A stretch of DNA of 64,000 bases from Methanofollis sp. W23. Its GTDB lineage: Archaea > Halobacteriota > Methanomicrobia > Methanomicrobiales > Methanofollaceae. This document shows, piece after piece, positions 5,967 to 54,906 of the stretch. The DNA is taken from contig NZ_JAGGMN010000001.1 in assembly GCF_017875325.1 (NCBI RefSeq), forward strand, positions 372,001 through 436,000, in the 5' to 3' direction. The notes below the pieces were generated by a model that was given only the letters and a program-made list of their open reading frames with translations, was not told where the DNA came from and searched no databases. A program made the position numbers and the translations under genes. Each line of letters starts with the position of its first letter. Position 1 is the first letter of the stretch.

Positions 5967-6469
5967 TCCTCACAACGCCTCGCCGTAAGTTCGTGCTTTA
6001 TAAGATAGTGATTTTTCCTAATAAAGGTTACTGGAGGGAGGAGAATTGCGCATGACGCAAAATCCTGCCATCCCGGAGATCCTGGGTGCAGGGTGTTTCA
6101 GGCACTGTTGAAACTCCTATCCATGTTTTGTACTCTTCTGTCCTGGGCATTTTATAATATCTTGCCTCGGGCCTTCCTCTGTCCCTGACACGTCAGGATG
6201 ACGATTGCGCCGGGAAGGCACCCCCGGTGGAGATGAGGCGGGGGTGTGCGCTCCCCCTTTGATCTTGACGCGAGGGTGTAGGGGGCGGCGAGCCCCCCCT
6301 CTGTCGAAGGGCCACCATGAGGATTTACCGTGAGCATATCTCAAAACTCTCTTTGGGTGACTATCTCCTCGACCTGAAATGCATCCTTCCAGAAATTCGA
6401 AACGCTCTCCTCCACCTGGGGTCCTGGCCGTCTCCTGGCCATAAAGATAGGTTCAATTGCGTACGCGTG
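5967..6469. other. Intergenic, family fragments, no gene seen
   Basis: Contains pieces of the intergenic repeat family (for example the CGCCGGGAAGGC and GGGGGCGGCGAGCCCCCC stretches near 6210-6300, and TTTACCGTGAGCATATC near 6324) without recognisable terminal repeats. Short open frames here show no family resemblance. Confidence 0.5.
5996..6004 (-). promoter_or_regulatory. TATA box for rpl10e
   Basis: CTTATAAAG on the minus strand centred about 34 bases before the ATG at 5966; a short leader ends in GTGAGGA, complementary to the 16S rRNA tail. Confidence 0.5.
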
Positions 6470-6910
6470 GGCTCTGTAGAACCCCTTACCTATTTGTGTG
6501 GGGGAGACGTGTGTCACCCGCCTTCCTACCTCTTTGGCCGGGGACGGCACGCCCCCGCCAGAGAGATTCATCAAGAGGATTTACCATGAAAATGATCCTG
6601 ACGATCCTCTCTTCAGGTTTGCATGAGCGTGTGAACTCGCCATATCCCTTTGAAGCCAATACGCAGAGGATAGAAAATTCCTATGATGAATCGGCCCCCC
6701 TCAATCGTCGAGATTTCCTTGCCATCTCGTGCCGGCGGGAAACCCCCCGGACCCCCCACGACGAAGAGAGTCGAGGGGCGGCATGATGCTCGACTTTGAT
6801 TCGCTCCTCGTTCGTAAGGATGAGAGTCAAGAATTGATCAAATTTGATATGATATTTTCATCCCGTATGCTTGAAGCGGGCGCTCGCCTCATGCCGAATT
6901 CTACAGAGTC
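6470..6910. mobile_element. MITE-like element, copy 1
   Basis: Begins GGCTCTGTAGAACCCC and ends TTCTACAGAGTC, inverted copies of the family end. The 8 bp outside the left end (TACGCGTG) and right end (TCCGCGTG) match at 7 of 8 positions, as expected for an aged target-site duplication. The 441-bp interior is larger than in other copies and contains family segments such as AGAGATTCATCAAGAGGATT (6561-6582 region), so it may be a nested or composite copy. No convincing coding sequence inside. Confidence 0.7.
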
Positions 6911-11243: not shown

Positions 11244-11376
11244 AGGGGGTTCAGGTGAGGATAGGGGGGCGGGCATCGGCTGAAGAATGGGATCGTTCCC
11301 TCTTGATCTTCTCCACTGCTGCTCAACTGGGGCCCGGGTTTCCCTGACCCACTTATCGCGAAGTTAGAGGCGGATG
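11244..11376. other. Intergenic, no gene seen
   Basis: Short stretch after the regulator with one family-like core (GGGGCCCGGGTTT near 11330). Leads directly into repeat copy 2. Confidence 0.4.
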
Positions 11377-11558
11377 GGCTCTGTAGAACCCCTCTGGATA
11401 ATTGTCTCTGCGGGGGCTTGCCGCCCCCCGGACCCCCCGCGAACACGATTGGTCGTGGACTGCAACGCACTTGTTATGGTCATCTATTCTGCCTTCCAGA
11501 TCTCATCGTGGTCTCGGGGGTCCGGGGGCTGAGCCCCCGGCTAAGTTTCTACAGAACT
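11377..11558. mobile_element. MITE-like element, copy 2, perfect 8-bp target duplication
   Basis: 182 bp. Left end GGCTCTGTAGAACCCCTC, right end TTTCTACAGAACT. It is flanked by the perfect direct repeat GGCGGATG (11369-11376 and 11559-11566). Inside are the two standard cores: a first one (GCCGCCCCCCGGACCCCCCG) and a second hairpin (GGGGGTCCGGGGGCTGAGCCCCC). This is the cleanest evidence in the window that the element inserts by transposition. Non-coding. Confidence 0.85.
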
Positions 11559-11604
11559 GGCGGATGAACATCGATCGACACTTTTACGTAACACGTTCAT
11601 CTGG

Positions 11605-11846
11605 GGGTTTGTAGAATACATCCTCTTTGCATCACACAGTCCTCCCCTGGGATCGAAATCCGTTGCCTTCCCTTACTATCAACCGCGGGGCGCCGCCCCT
11701 GGGATCCCCATGATGAAGATGGAAGCCGGAAGGTGGAGAGATGACCATAAAGAGGGTGCTGCCATCCTCGACCCATCATGTGGCGGGGGGATCGGGGGCG
11801 AGTGCCCCCTGTCAGAGAGATTCATCAAGAGGATTTTTACAGAGCC
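11605..11846. mobile_element. MITE-like element, copy 3
   Basis: 242 bp between GGGTTTGTAGAAT (left end, degenerate) and TTTTTACAGAGCC (right end). Contains a GGGGCGCCGCCCCTGGGATCC core and the AGAGAGATTCATCAAGAGGA segment shared with copies 1, 4 and 11. No flanking direct repeat was seen, so an end may have been replaced. Confidence 0.65.
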
Positions 11847-11887: not shown

Positions 11888-12139
11888 ATGGGAGCCACGA
11901 CGGTGTGGGTGTCGCCGGAAACCAAGGAGCGGCTGGATGCGATAAAATGCCATCCTGACGAGACCTACGAGGACGTGATCATCAGGCTGATCGATATTGC
12001 CATAGATTCAGAACCCCTCAGTGAGGAGACGCTCAAAGCACTCGATGAATCGGTTGAAGACATTAAAGCCGGCCGCCTCTTCACCCTTGACGAGGTCCGC
12101 GCAGAGCTCAGGGCTGGATGGCGTACGAAGTCAGAGTGA
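11888..12139 (+). CDS. Putative antitoxin of a type II toxin-antitoxin pair
   Basis: 83-residue protein starting MGATTVWVSPETKERLDAIK, the short beta-strand plus helix form of archaeal ribbon-helix-helix-like antitoxins, with an acidic C-terminal half (LKALDESVEDIKAGRLF, DEVRAELRAG) of the sort that wraps the toxin. The toxin gene overlaps its end by 22 bases, the usual coupling. Such antitoxins bind their own promoter together with the toxin. The pair lies between repeat copies 3 and 4. Confidence 0.8.
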   Translation: MGATTVWVSPETKERLDAIKCHPDETYEDVIIRLIDIAIDSEPLSEETLKALDESVEDIKAGRLFTLDEVRAELRAGWRTKSE

Positions 12140-12393
12140 CGCCATCTGTCATATGGCGGATGCGCCACCTCCCCGAAGAGGTCAGAGAGAGGATCCTTGA
12201 TGAGGTGGAGAACCTTGCCCGGCAGCCTGATCCATCCTTGCATGTGAAGATATTGCAGGGAGGGAGTGCGATGCCACTTTGCTCTTTTCGTGTCGGGGCG
12301 TACAGGGCGATCCTGACTATCCATCATAAAGAGGTGCAAAAAATTGTGGTCGTCGTAGTGGGTCACCGGTCAGAGGTCTATCGAAAAATCTAA
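12118..12393 (+). CDS. relE: RelE/ParE-type toxin
   Basis: 91-residue RelE-fold toxin; family members cut mRNA in the ribosome A site or poison gyrase. YEVRVTPSVIWRMRHLPEEVRERI, then GSAMPLCSFRVGAYRAILTIHHKEVQKIVVVVVGHRSEVYRKI: the basic R-x-G-x-YR core and the C-terminal GHR.EVY are characteristic RelE features. Start overlaps the antitoxin by 22 bases. A RelE-type ribonuclease is more likely than ParE because of the closing GHRSEVYRKI. Confidence 0.85.
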   Translation: MAYEVRVTPSVIWRMRHLPEEVRERILDEVENLARQPDPSLHVKILQGGSAMPLCSFRVGAYRAILTIHHKEVQKIVVVVVGHRSEVYRKI

Positions 12394-12406: not shown

Positions 12407-12598
12407 GGCTCTGTAGATTCCTCTTCCTTTCATCGAGGTCATCGCAAAACTCTCCAGACCTCCCTCAGAAGAGAGGGCAGGAAGGCAGAGCGATGATTGT
12501 GACGATGGGATGCGAGCCCCTATCAATCATCATCACCGGGAGGACCGGGGCGGCCACCCCCTGTCAGAGAGATTCATCTAGAGGATTTCTACAGAGCG
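12407..12598. mobile_element. MITE-like element, copy 4
   Basis: 192 bp starting 14 bases after the relE stop. Left end CGGCTCTGTAGATTCC, right end GAGGATTTCTACAGAGCG; interior has GGCAGGAAGGCAGAGCGATGAT and the CTGTCAGAGAGATTCATC segment seen in copy 3. The flanks TCTTTTTC and CTTTTGCG do not match, so no target duplication is claimed. Confidence 0.7.
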
Positions 12599-31911: not shown

Positions 31912-32115
31912 AGTTCTGTAGAAATTCTCTGGACAGGTATCTTTTTCCCCGGCGTGAAGAGAGGCGTTGGACGGCATTACACTCTTCATGGCGATTGAGT
32001 GTGCCTTCCAGGCCCTATCTTCATCCCGGGGGTCCGGGGGCAGCGCCCCCGGCCGAAGTGGTGGGAAGGCGGGCGATGCACATCTCCCCAAAGAGGTGAG
32101 GGGTTCTACAGAGCC
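31912..32115. mobile_element. MITE-like element, copy 5
   Basis: 204 bp. Left end AGTTCTGTAGAAATTCTC, right end GAGGGGTTCTACAGAGCC; the second core reads CCCGGGGGTCCGGGGGCAGC-GCCCCCGGCC and the GTGGTGGGAAGGCGGGCGATG segment follows. No matching flanks. Confidence 0.7.
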
Positions 32116-32199
32116 CTCTTTTCATCACTTCAACCTCGGTGTCCTGCGATGAAGGAGGAGCGGTGATACACTTATTCTTAGAGAATTTTCAGTATTTTC

Positions 32200-32470
32200 G
32201 GCTCTGTAGAAACCCTCACTTCCTCTCGGTGCAAGGGTGACCCAATCGCCTTCCCACACAATCACGCCGGGGGCGCTGCCCCCGTACAGCGAAGATCATA
32301 GATCTTCTCGACTCCCTCCGGTCGTCCCCCTGGACCACGATGGGACCGGGAAGGCACAAAAAATGACCATGAAGAGGGGATTGCCGTCCTCTGCCTATCC
32401 TCGTGCAGGGGGTTCGGGGGGCGGCGAGCCCCCCGTCGAAGAGAACCATCAAGAGGGTTTCTCCAGAGCC
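32200..32470. mobile_element. MITE-like element, copy 6, perfect 8-bp target duplication
   Basis: 271 bp. Ends GGCTCTGTAGAAACCCTC and GAGGGTTTCTCCAGAGCC: 18-bp inverted repeats with one mismatch. Flanked by the perfect 8-bp direct repeat GTATTTTC (32192-32199, 32471-32478). Interior carries CGCCGGGGGCGCTGCCCCCG and GGGTTCGGGGGGCGGCGAGC cores. The best-preserved ends in the window. Confidence 0.85.
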
Positions 32471-32724
32471 GTATTTTCAATTGCGTATGCGTGAGCAAGA
32501 TGTTCGTGCCGGATTCTCCAGGGCTAAACAAATTCGCTGAATGAAGATGAGGCCGTCTTCGCCCTCTTGTGTATCATGAGGGTGCGGAGGACATGTCGGG
32601 AGCCATATCTCCAGATCTGAGGACCTTCATCTCTGTAACCACCAGGCTTCTCTCACCGTCCCTGCATCATCTGTCCGCCCGCAGGGCCGCAGGGTGATCT
32701 CCCGACCCATTCTGCGCGCCACAC

Positions 32725-36187: not shown

Positions 36188-36577
36188 AGGTCTTCGGGGA
36201 TATGGCAGATGATATACTGTCCATTTTAATAAATGGTTCGGTTCTGGTCTGGGGAGGTGGGTTGAGAACAGTGGAGGGGTTGGCAGGGGGAAAAAGAGGG
36301 CGGATGGTGGTGCAGGTTCTGTCGGGGTGGGGCGTGGCCACTGATGAAGACCCTGTCATGGGGTGTTGGGAGGGTGATCGTGTCCAGGGATTCAAGAATC
36401 ATCAGATGGGTTTGAAGATGCATGTAAAATCTCGTCGTGATGCAACTCTTTCACGATCCATACAAGAAACAGTGAACCCTTCCCTACTTCGTCCCACCCA
36501 CCTTACGGTGGCCTCATCCTTTTCGGGAAGGACTTACTCACTGAGTGATAATCCATGCTGAGATTTTTTATTTTTTC
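36188..36577. other. Intergenic, no gene seen
   Basis: Purine-rich stretch (GGGAGGTGGGTTGAGAAC...) with an open plus frame lacking protein character, then a lower-GC part with CTCACTGAGTGATAATCC. Nothing recognisable apart from the inverted repeat at 36221-36236. Confidence 0.4.
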
Positions 36578-36906
36578 GGCTCTGGAGAACCCCTCACTCA
36601 TTCCAGGTATACGCGTGACTCCCTCGCCTTCCCCGTTTCTTTGGCCGATCCGCACATCGAAGATCAAAGATCTTCTCAAACTCACTCATAACGAGAAAAT
36701 TGCTGCCCCCCTCTTATCATGTGCTGGGAGTTGCACCCCCCAGGGACCACCCCCACAGAGAGAGGAGAGGCGTTGGCGACAATGAGGTGGTCTCACAGAG
36801 TGTCCTGCTCAGAGGGAGCGGCACCGATTCACACACTCTGGAGCCCCACGATCATGTTCATCCCGTAGCCTGAGCAAAGAAGGTTCATGTCTGATTCTAC
36901 AGAACC
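36578..36906. mobile_element. MITE-like element, copy 7
   Basis: 329 bp. Left end CGGCTCTGGAGAACCCCTC (T to G change as in copy 6), right end GATTCTACAGAACC. Interior is more diverged; a GGGAGTTGCACCCCCCAGGG core is present. Flanks ATTTTTTC and CTTCATTC agree at 5 of 8 positions only. Confidence 0.55.
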
Positions 36907-41734: not shown

Positions 41735-42132
41735 AAGTCATGGTCCTGGAGACCCCTGCCCTTTCCTGGGACGAAACGCGACCGACCCGCCACCCCCACT
41801 CTCTCTGGCGGGGCGCGTGCCTCTCAAAGATTGGAAATTATCTCAGGCTCCTTCCGGTCTCACTCGAAGATCAATGATGCACGAAAGATCGGAGATCTTC
41901 CATGGACCTGGCGTGTAGAACTCCCGCTCCTCTTCGAGGGGCGAGCATGACTCGATCATCTTCCTCTCTGTTCGGCCCCAGAACCCGCGAGATGGCGATT
42001 GGGCAGGGAAGGTTGAAGAGAAGATCCCGAAGAAAAAAAGATCCAGAAGAGAGATATGCTATCCCCTGTCCATCTTCATAGATAGAGGGGTCTGGGGGGC
42101 ATTCGCCCCCCGGTGAAGAGACCATCAAGAGG
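41735..42132. other. Intergenic with repeat fragments, no gene seen
   Basis: GCGTGTAGAACTCCC at 41921 is a degenerate end; GAGATGGCGATTGGGCAGGG (41989-42008) and GGGTCTGGGGGGCATTCGCC-CCCCGG (42090-42115) are family cores. CCATCAAGAGG at 42122-42132, normally just inside a right end, is interrupted by copy 8. Confidence 0.5.
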
Positions 42133-42425
42133 GGCTCTGTAGAAACCCTCTGGTCAGTTATCTCTGCGGGTGTCGTGCCGCCCCCCGGTCCCCCCGCCAC
42201 ACGATAGGTCAAGGACGGCAGCACGCTCTTTATAGTCATCTATTCTGCCTTCCCGACCTTATCGTGGTCCCGGGGGGTCCTGGGGCAGAGCCCCCGGCCA
42301 CTGGGGTAAGAAGGCGGGCGACACACGTCCCCTCACACAAGAGGTGAAGTTTACCATGAAAAACACTGGCGGTGTTTTTCAAAGAACCGCTTGGAACGTT
42401 GTTTCATCAGCGATTCTACAGAGCC
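42133..42425. mobile_element. MITE-like element, copy 8, probably nested
   Basis: 293 bp from GGCTCTGTAGAAACCCTC to GATTCTACAGAGCC. Both cores are near consensus (GTGCCGCCCCCCGGTCCCCC; CCCGGGGGGTCCTGGGGC). The left neighbour CCATCAAGAGG is itself the inner end of another copy, so one element seems to have landed in another. No matching 8-bp flanks. Confidence 0.65.
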
Positions 42426-46267: not shown

Positions 46268-46425
46268 GGCTCTGTAGAGATTTCCTGAGCGGCGGTCTCG
46301 TGCCACCCCTGGTCCCCCTTTTCATCCCCTGGGTCCTGGGACGCCGCGTCCTGGGCGAGAAGAAGATAAGGGGAGGCGGGAGGTCTACGCTCATACCAGG
46401 TATTGGTGAGGGTTTCTACAGAGCG
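46268..46425. mobile_element. MITE-like element, copy 9, shortest
   Basis: 158 bp. Left end CGGCTCTGTAGAGATTTCC, right end GAGGGTTTCTACAGAGCG. Left flank TTCTGAAC and right flank CGCTGAAC share 6 of 8 bases, so an 8-bp target duplication with two changes is likely; the left copy includes the TGA stop of the flavoprotein gene. Contains one core (CTGGGTCCTGGGACGCCGCG). Confidence 0.7.
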
Positions 46426-51984: not shown

Positions 51985-52216
51985 GGTTCTGTAGAAATCC
52001 TCTGGACAGGTATCTCTGGCGGGGTGCGTGCCGCCCCCCGAACCTCCCGCGACACGAGAGGTCGGGGACGGCAGCACTCTTGTCACAGTTGTCCATGATG
52101 CCTTCCCGACCCCCTATCTTCCTCACGGGGGTCCGGGGGCAGCACCCCCGGCCAAAGAGATAGGAAGGCGGATGACACGCATTCTCCCCACGATAAGTGA
52201 GGGTTTCTACAGAGCC
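51985..52216. mobile_element. MITE-like element, copy 10, with flanking direct repeat
   Basis: 232 bp. Left end GGTTCTGTAGAAATCCTC, right end GAGGGTTTCTACAGAGCC (exact consensus). AAAATAG lies directly outside both ends, and AAAATAGGG occurs at 51978-51986 and 52217-52225, so the duplication is 7-9 bp depending on where the left end is placed. Both cores near consensus (GTGCCGCCCCCCGAACCTCC; CGGGGGTCCGGGGGCAGC). Confidence 0.8.
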
Positions 52217-54211: not shown

Positions 54212-54906
54212 GGCTCTGTAGAATCAGGCATGAACTCGGGGTTCACTCATATGCGGTTGAAGATAGATCTCCGCGTGCTCTCTCTTTTCAAGACAGGAGA
54301 ATCAGTGGGGATCGTGTTCCATCGCCGCCCCCGCCTATCTTCGTCGTGGGGGGTCCGGGAGGTGCAACCCTCCGGCGCGAGATTGGGATGAAGATTCTGC
54401 GATTGAAGGCGGCACGCCTGATCATCACACCTTCCTACATCTTTACGCCGGGGGCGCCGCCCCCGGACCCCCGGGATGAAGATAGGGCCGGGAAGGCAGA
54501 GGGCCTGATCGTTCTGAGGACGGTCTGTTCTCCGCATATCAGTTATGAGGGAAATCTGTATCTTTGAATTCTCATCCATCAACTCCAGAATTGAATGTCT
54601 GGATCATTTTCATGGTAAATCCTCTTGATGAATCTCTCTGGCGGGGGGTTGCACCCCCAGGTCCCCCGCGCCACGAGAGGTCGTGGACGGCAATCCCTCT
54701 TCAGGGGTTTCGAATATGCCTTCCCGGCTTAATCTTCATCCAGAGGGACGACAGGAGGGAGTCGAGAAGATCTTTGATCGTCGATATGTGAGTGTGAGCG
54801 AACACGAGAGAGCCGAAGGCTTCTGATGGAGCCCCCGGCACGATTCATGAGGGAAGGCGGGTGAGTCATGCGTGCACCCATAATGGGTGAAGATTTCTAC
54901 AGGGCC
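54212..54906. mobile_element. MITE-like element, copy 11, composite
   Basis: Starts GGCTCTGTAGAATCAGGC and ends GATTTCTACAGGGCC, 695 bp apart. Inside are a very clear hairpin core (GCCGGGGGCGCCGCCCCCGG, 54449-54468) followed by GATGAAGATAGGGCCGGGAA, the ATCATTTTCATGGTAAATCC segment (54603-54622) with CTTGATGAATCTCTCTGGCG, and a first-type core. Probably several elements inserted into one another. No matching flanks. Confidence 0.55.

Follow-up and report, generated by a model that had tools for sequence, protein, structure and literature searches.

The window (the whole 64-kb stretch of DNA that was analysed) contains a 182-bp MITE at 11377-11558 (+), a shortened copy of a 232-bp body (profile E=1.6e-38) whose ends, read inwards, are GGCTCTGTAGAACCCCTC and AGTTCTGTAGAAACTTAG. 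A perfect 8-bp repeat, GGCGGATG, lies on either side of it, observed as the left (11369-11376) and right (11559-11566) copies of a target-site duplication that carries no strand. This arrangement had been described in a first-pass annotation of the same DNA, and we found it as described. The sister genomes G004 and G005 retained the upstream gene at this locus, with different sequence downstream.

Close by, a second copy of about 239 bp was observed at 11608-11846 (-; profile E=1.8e-38), with flanks matching at 4 of 8 positions and no clear flank repeat, and a 191-bp copy identified by a profile match at 12407-12597 (-; flanks 6 of 8). Between these two lies a small gene pair (11888-12393, +) encoding a DUF7557/VapB-like protein (DUF7557, E=3.6e-12) and, downstream of it, a ParE-type toxin (PF05016, E=7e-6), which on these domain matches is likely a toxin-antitoxin module bracketed by MITEs. 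The early part of the window contained a decayed copy (6101-6326, -; profile E=7.7e-14) and a long form of 441 bp (6470-6910, -) with flanks TACGCGTG/TCCGCGTG (7 of 8). A copy of about 203 bp without a flank repeat (31913-32115, +; E=8.9e-43) is followed by one of 271 bp (32200-32470, -; E=9.7e-59), bounded by the perfect 8-bp flanks GTATTTTC at 32192-32199 and 32471-32478. The remaining units discussed here were a fragment with one end (36578-36647, -; E=2.5e-6), two touching copies at 41914-42352 (41914-42141 on -, E=1e-20; 42133-42352 on +, E=1.5e-47), a fragment with the right end (46301-46424, +; E=9e-13), a full-length 232-bp copy (51985-52216, +; E=1.2e-54) with a 7-bp flank match, AAAATAG, and a one-base slip, and a 695-bp complex in which two ends enclose pieces of MITEs (54212-54906, +; several profile matches, no flank repeat). 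Flank repeats were absent or lost at the 11.6, 31.9, 42.1 and 54.2 kb copies. The sole match in an Rfam scan of the window was a DUF3800-X RNA unrelated to the MITEs (RF02984, 88 bits; 36470-36543, -), at a distance of 35 bp to the fragment that starts at 36578.

The first-pass annotation had named at least eleven places in the window. All 11 scored against the family profile, those near 36.6 and 46.3 kb as fragments only, and the count itself was too low, with the profile giving 27 merged places (6.4% of the window) and none in reversed sequence. Searching for the 18-bp end GGCTCTGTAGAAACCCTC and its inverse with up to 3 mismatches gave 15 matches in the window (0.04 in shuffled sequence). 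The genome-wide search that the annotation had proposed, at up to 2 mismatches, gave 415 matches in the 2.9-Mb genome and 0 for a reversed-pattern control.

Insertion, abundance and divergence of the family

Duplications of a fixed length were observed over 864 kb (the window plus 800 kb), with a sharp peak at 8 bp. Within C1:600-1,400 kb, 18 of 185 inverted pairs had a perfect flank repeat of 8 bp, while 3 had one of 7 bp and none one of 9 bp. Flanks matching at 7-8 of 8 positions were found for 38 pairs in this region and for none in offset controls; in the window itself two units had perfect 8-bp repeats (11377-11558 and 32200-32470). The targets were AT-rich, with 82% AT in the inner 6 bp as compared to 50% in MITE-free intergenic DNA, and tended towards a symmetric consensus, roughly GAWWWWTC. 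In many copies no duplication could be recognised; decay or recombination would account for this but is no proof.

Empty sites with a single target copy were observed in sister genomes for four insertions, three by comparison with G001 (C1:909090-909321, C1:2141869-2142082 and C1:1362752-1362972) and one by comparison with both G005 and G004 (C1:702973-703093). In each instance the joined flanks aligned across the join with no insert. Empty-site comparison had been set beforehand as the test by which insertion could be refuted, and because the joined flanks align without the insert in the sisters, it instead favours the MITE reading. With these sites and the genome-wide counts, the earlier description of the units as MITE-like and non-autonomous, with 8-bp target duplications and a striking density, was borne out.

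Sequence similarity connected all of the units with good duplications (41 of 41) in a single cluster. The commonest form has a 232-bp consensus, a GC-rich palindrome that contains two internal G/C hairpins, and a long form of 441-654 bp, to which 6470-6910 belongs, has the ends of the short form and also perfect 8-bp duplications. Apart from this long form the units measure about 100-330 bp between inverted ends, and no transposase gene was found within any of them. The short-form profile identified 400 merged places in the 864 kb (about 7.2%; none in reversed sequence) and 122 in another 360 kb (5.1%). Over the 1.22 Mb sampled, the short family covered 6.5% and the short and long forms together about 11%, and by extrapolation the chromosome would hold roughly 1,200 places, fragments included. 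About 90 copies in the 864 kb were near full length. These have diverged (identity averages 63% over all pairs, with a median of 77% to the nearest neighbour and 95% at best), and the copies are therefore taken to be largely relics of a family that looks old and mostly inactive in this genome.

A second contig (C2, 37,497 bp) had 0 MITE copies as compared to about 43 places per 100 kb of the sampled chromosome, which suggests that it is a plasmid or other recently acquired DNA. A further intergenic repeat, characterised by the motif CTCGAACTGAAGTGTATCCTTCCAGAAATTCTACACCC, recurs at G000:C1:2040719-2041126 (L187) and in the flanks of other units, with many partial copies in this genome.

Genomic location and possible host function

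Using gene calls from a simple codon-usage gene caller made for this analysis, we found that MITE copies fill 23-25% of the intergenic DNA and almost never overlap with called genes. Convergent gaps contained MITEs in 78% of cases, tandem gaps in 40% and divergent gaps in 35% (convergent versus divergent, p=1e-8). Such a distribution, together with the strong palindromy of the body, its conservation across the genus and a predicted fold of -128 kcal/mol for the consensus, might be expected of repeats kept for a function, for instance by bounding or terminating 3' ends in both directions or as a structured RNA, with the transposon features reflecting their origin only. We consider this very unlikely. 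The MITE body folds strongly because it is palindromic; its paired positions were hardly better kept than expected under independent column variation (0.726 versus 0.720), and the covariation term was only -0.45. A conserved RNA as the main reading of the body was rejected on this weak structural covariation. Orientation within tandem gaps was near even (57 versus 44), the 8-bp duplications and empty sites show insertion, and the convergent-gap bias is explained equally well, and sufficiently, by selection against insertions that damage genes and promoters. Given the weak covariation and near-even tandem orientation, we treated the family as a mobile element and not as a selected RNA or terminator.

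The partner element and its transposase

Elements of 954-1,010 bp that share the ends of the MITEs and are flanked by perfect 8-bp duplications were observed in several genera of the order, Methanoculleus among them, and in sister species, so that the full-length IS for which the first-pass annotation had advised a search does exist. One of these (G044) is 1,010 bp long with ends GGCTCTGTTGAATTCCTC/GGCTCTGTTGAAACCCTC, the duplication CAAGCATC and an ORF of 288 aa. Two others, from the genus of the window and with A-form ends, are a 1,008-bp element in G005 (duplication GAACAATC) and a broken 954-bp element in G009 (duplication CGAAAATC). The 288-aa transposase matched the NCBIfam profile transpos_IS5_2 (NF033579; E=1.9e-68, 231 bits, cut-off 140), as an IS5-type DDE transposase would, and also Pfam DDE_Tnp_1. 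It contains YRERNKVETAFSVLK, which corresponds to Y(2)R(3)E(6)K, the motif of IS4/IS5 transposases. The element size, single ORF and 8-bp duplication fall within the ISH1 subgroup (900-1150 bp; PMC6352166 Table 2). The partner thus fits an ISH1-like element by these three features, and belongs to the IS5 family by its transposase profile.

The ends of the IS are unequal, with AAACCCTC at the 5' side of the transposase and AATTCCTC at the 3' side. The MITEs have AAACCCTC at one end and AAATCCTC at the other (in some copies AATTCCTC), and these ends match an autonomous element of equal duplication length. Since the likeness between MITE and IS is confined to about the outer 18 bp, mobilisation in trans is argued from the ends and duplication length and not from the body. 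In the genus Methanoculleus (G029), two 97-bp elements (L049, L050) have ends of the T-form, GGCTCTGTTGAAA, and lie between perfect 8-bp duplications; by sequence they are predicted to be a far smaller kind of MITE belonging to this IS group. For the more distant haloarchaeal and Methanomethylovorans relatives, the ends were not recovered by simply looking for perfect 8-bp repeats together with inverted ends. IMG/VR contained no exact end and, by pattern search, no relative of the transposase, so that a viral carrier has no support.

The identity of the partner bears on the family to which the units belong. The first-pass annotation had proposed IS1595, and 8-bp duplications, a GGC start and the record of an archaeal IS1595-linked MITE with 8-bp repeats in Haloquadratum (PMC3852290 Table 4) agree with that proposal. 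However, a search of the genome for a PF12762 (DDE_Tnp_IS1595) transposase gave no match, and elements with exactly these ends encode IS5-family (ISH1-like) transposases in several genera of the order, making the IS1595 attribution highly improbable. MITEs of the IS6/IS26 type have a close to negligible chance of being correct, for although GGCTCTGTWGAAA presumably resembles an IS26 end and IS6 also makes 8-bp duplications, a PF13610 (DDE_Tnp_IS240) transposase was searched for in the genome and not found, and the partner bearing these ends is an IS5 element.

No intact IS5-type transposase was found in the genome of the window, where we observed only a truncated 3' part joined to the right terminal repeat, GGCTCTGTAGAATTCCTC. 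Within the genus, the transposase was intact in G003 and G005 and broken in G004, G008 and G009. The sister G001 had no transposase match, a weak absence given an assembly that is fragmented and 81% complete. A 13-base core of the end was counted 331 times in the genome of the window, 421 in G001, 201 in G005, 137 in G004 and 103 in G009, with 3-37 in the remaining members of the genus and 0-1 in controls. The genome of the window and G001 contained the most ends, yet no full transposase was detectable in either. The sister species differ in whether the transposase is intact, broken or absent and vary widely in copy number, which allows a direct comparison of how a prokaryotic transposon family rises and dies.

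Proposed origin and relation to known elements

We consider it highly probable that an IS5-family, ISH1-like transposase mobilised the units in trans as MITEs (non-autonomous DNA transposons) and that the autonomous element has since been lost in this lineage. An ISH1-like transposase would recognise ends of the form GGCTCTGTWGAAW... and move the element into 8-bp targets rich in AT (roughly GAWWWWTC), duplicating them in the process. Two bodies that share their ends, one palindromic and 232 bp in length and the other longer, would have spread through the genus, and the autonomous element would then have been lost in this lineage except for the truncated remnant, leaving mostly fossil intergenic copies. 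Copies may persist at the 3' ends of genes as they would be least harmful there. An additional suggestion, to which we give a small chance, is that the family was co-opted by the host after loss of the transposase, with palindromic copies at gene 3' ends serving as boundaries between convergent transcripts; if true, such a role would account for about a quarter of the intergenic DNA being kept as MITE repeats.

Under the preferred reading of trans-mobilised MITEs, this is an unusually abundant archaeal MITE family, occupying about 6.5% (short form) to 11% (with the long form) of the 1.22 Mb in a genome that lacks the enzyme for its movement. Before intergenic DNA of these archaea is annotated, RNA and promoter predictions among other things, the repeats must be masked. 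No earlier description of the family was found in the open literature, with subscription papers and ISfinder outside this scope. The family is new and very abundant, while the kind of element is already known.

Members of the ISH1 subgroup of the IS5 family, such as ISTth7 of Thermus, are 900-1150 bp with 8-bp repeats and one ORF (PMC6352166 Table 2). The partners resemble them in length (954-1,010 bp), single ORF, 8-bp duplications and IS5-type transposase, but occur in an archaeal methanogen lineage and have their own ends. MITEs described in the archaea Haloquadratum, Methanosarcina and Methanospirillum are short and non-coding and have no more than an outer stretch of <20 bp in common with an autonomous partner that may be broken or lost; the newly found archaeal families tabulated in this literature number 2-34 copies each (PMC3852290, PMC3119063). 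The present family is similar in that its likeness to the IS ends stops after about 18 bp and its partner can be broken or lost, whereas it has about 90 near-full-length copies and 400 places in 864 kb alone. High-copy intergenic palindromic repeats are also known in bacteria as ERIC and Correia elements, with up to 711 ERIC copies in Photorhabdus luminescens (reviewed in PMC10969869). These differ in hosts and sequence from the family described here, for which a partner transposase family was identified and the duplication is 8 bp.
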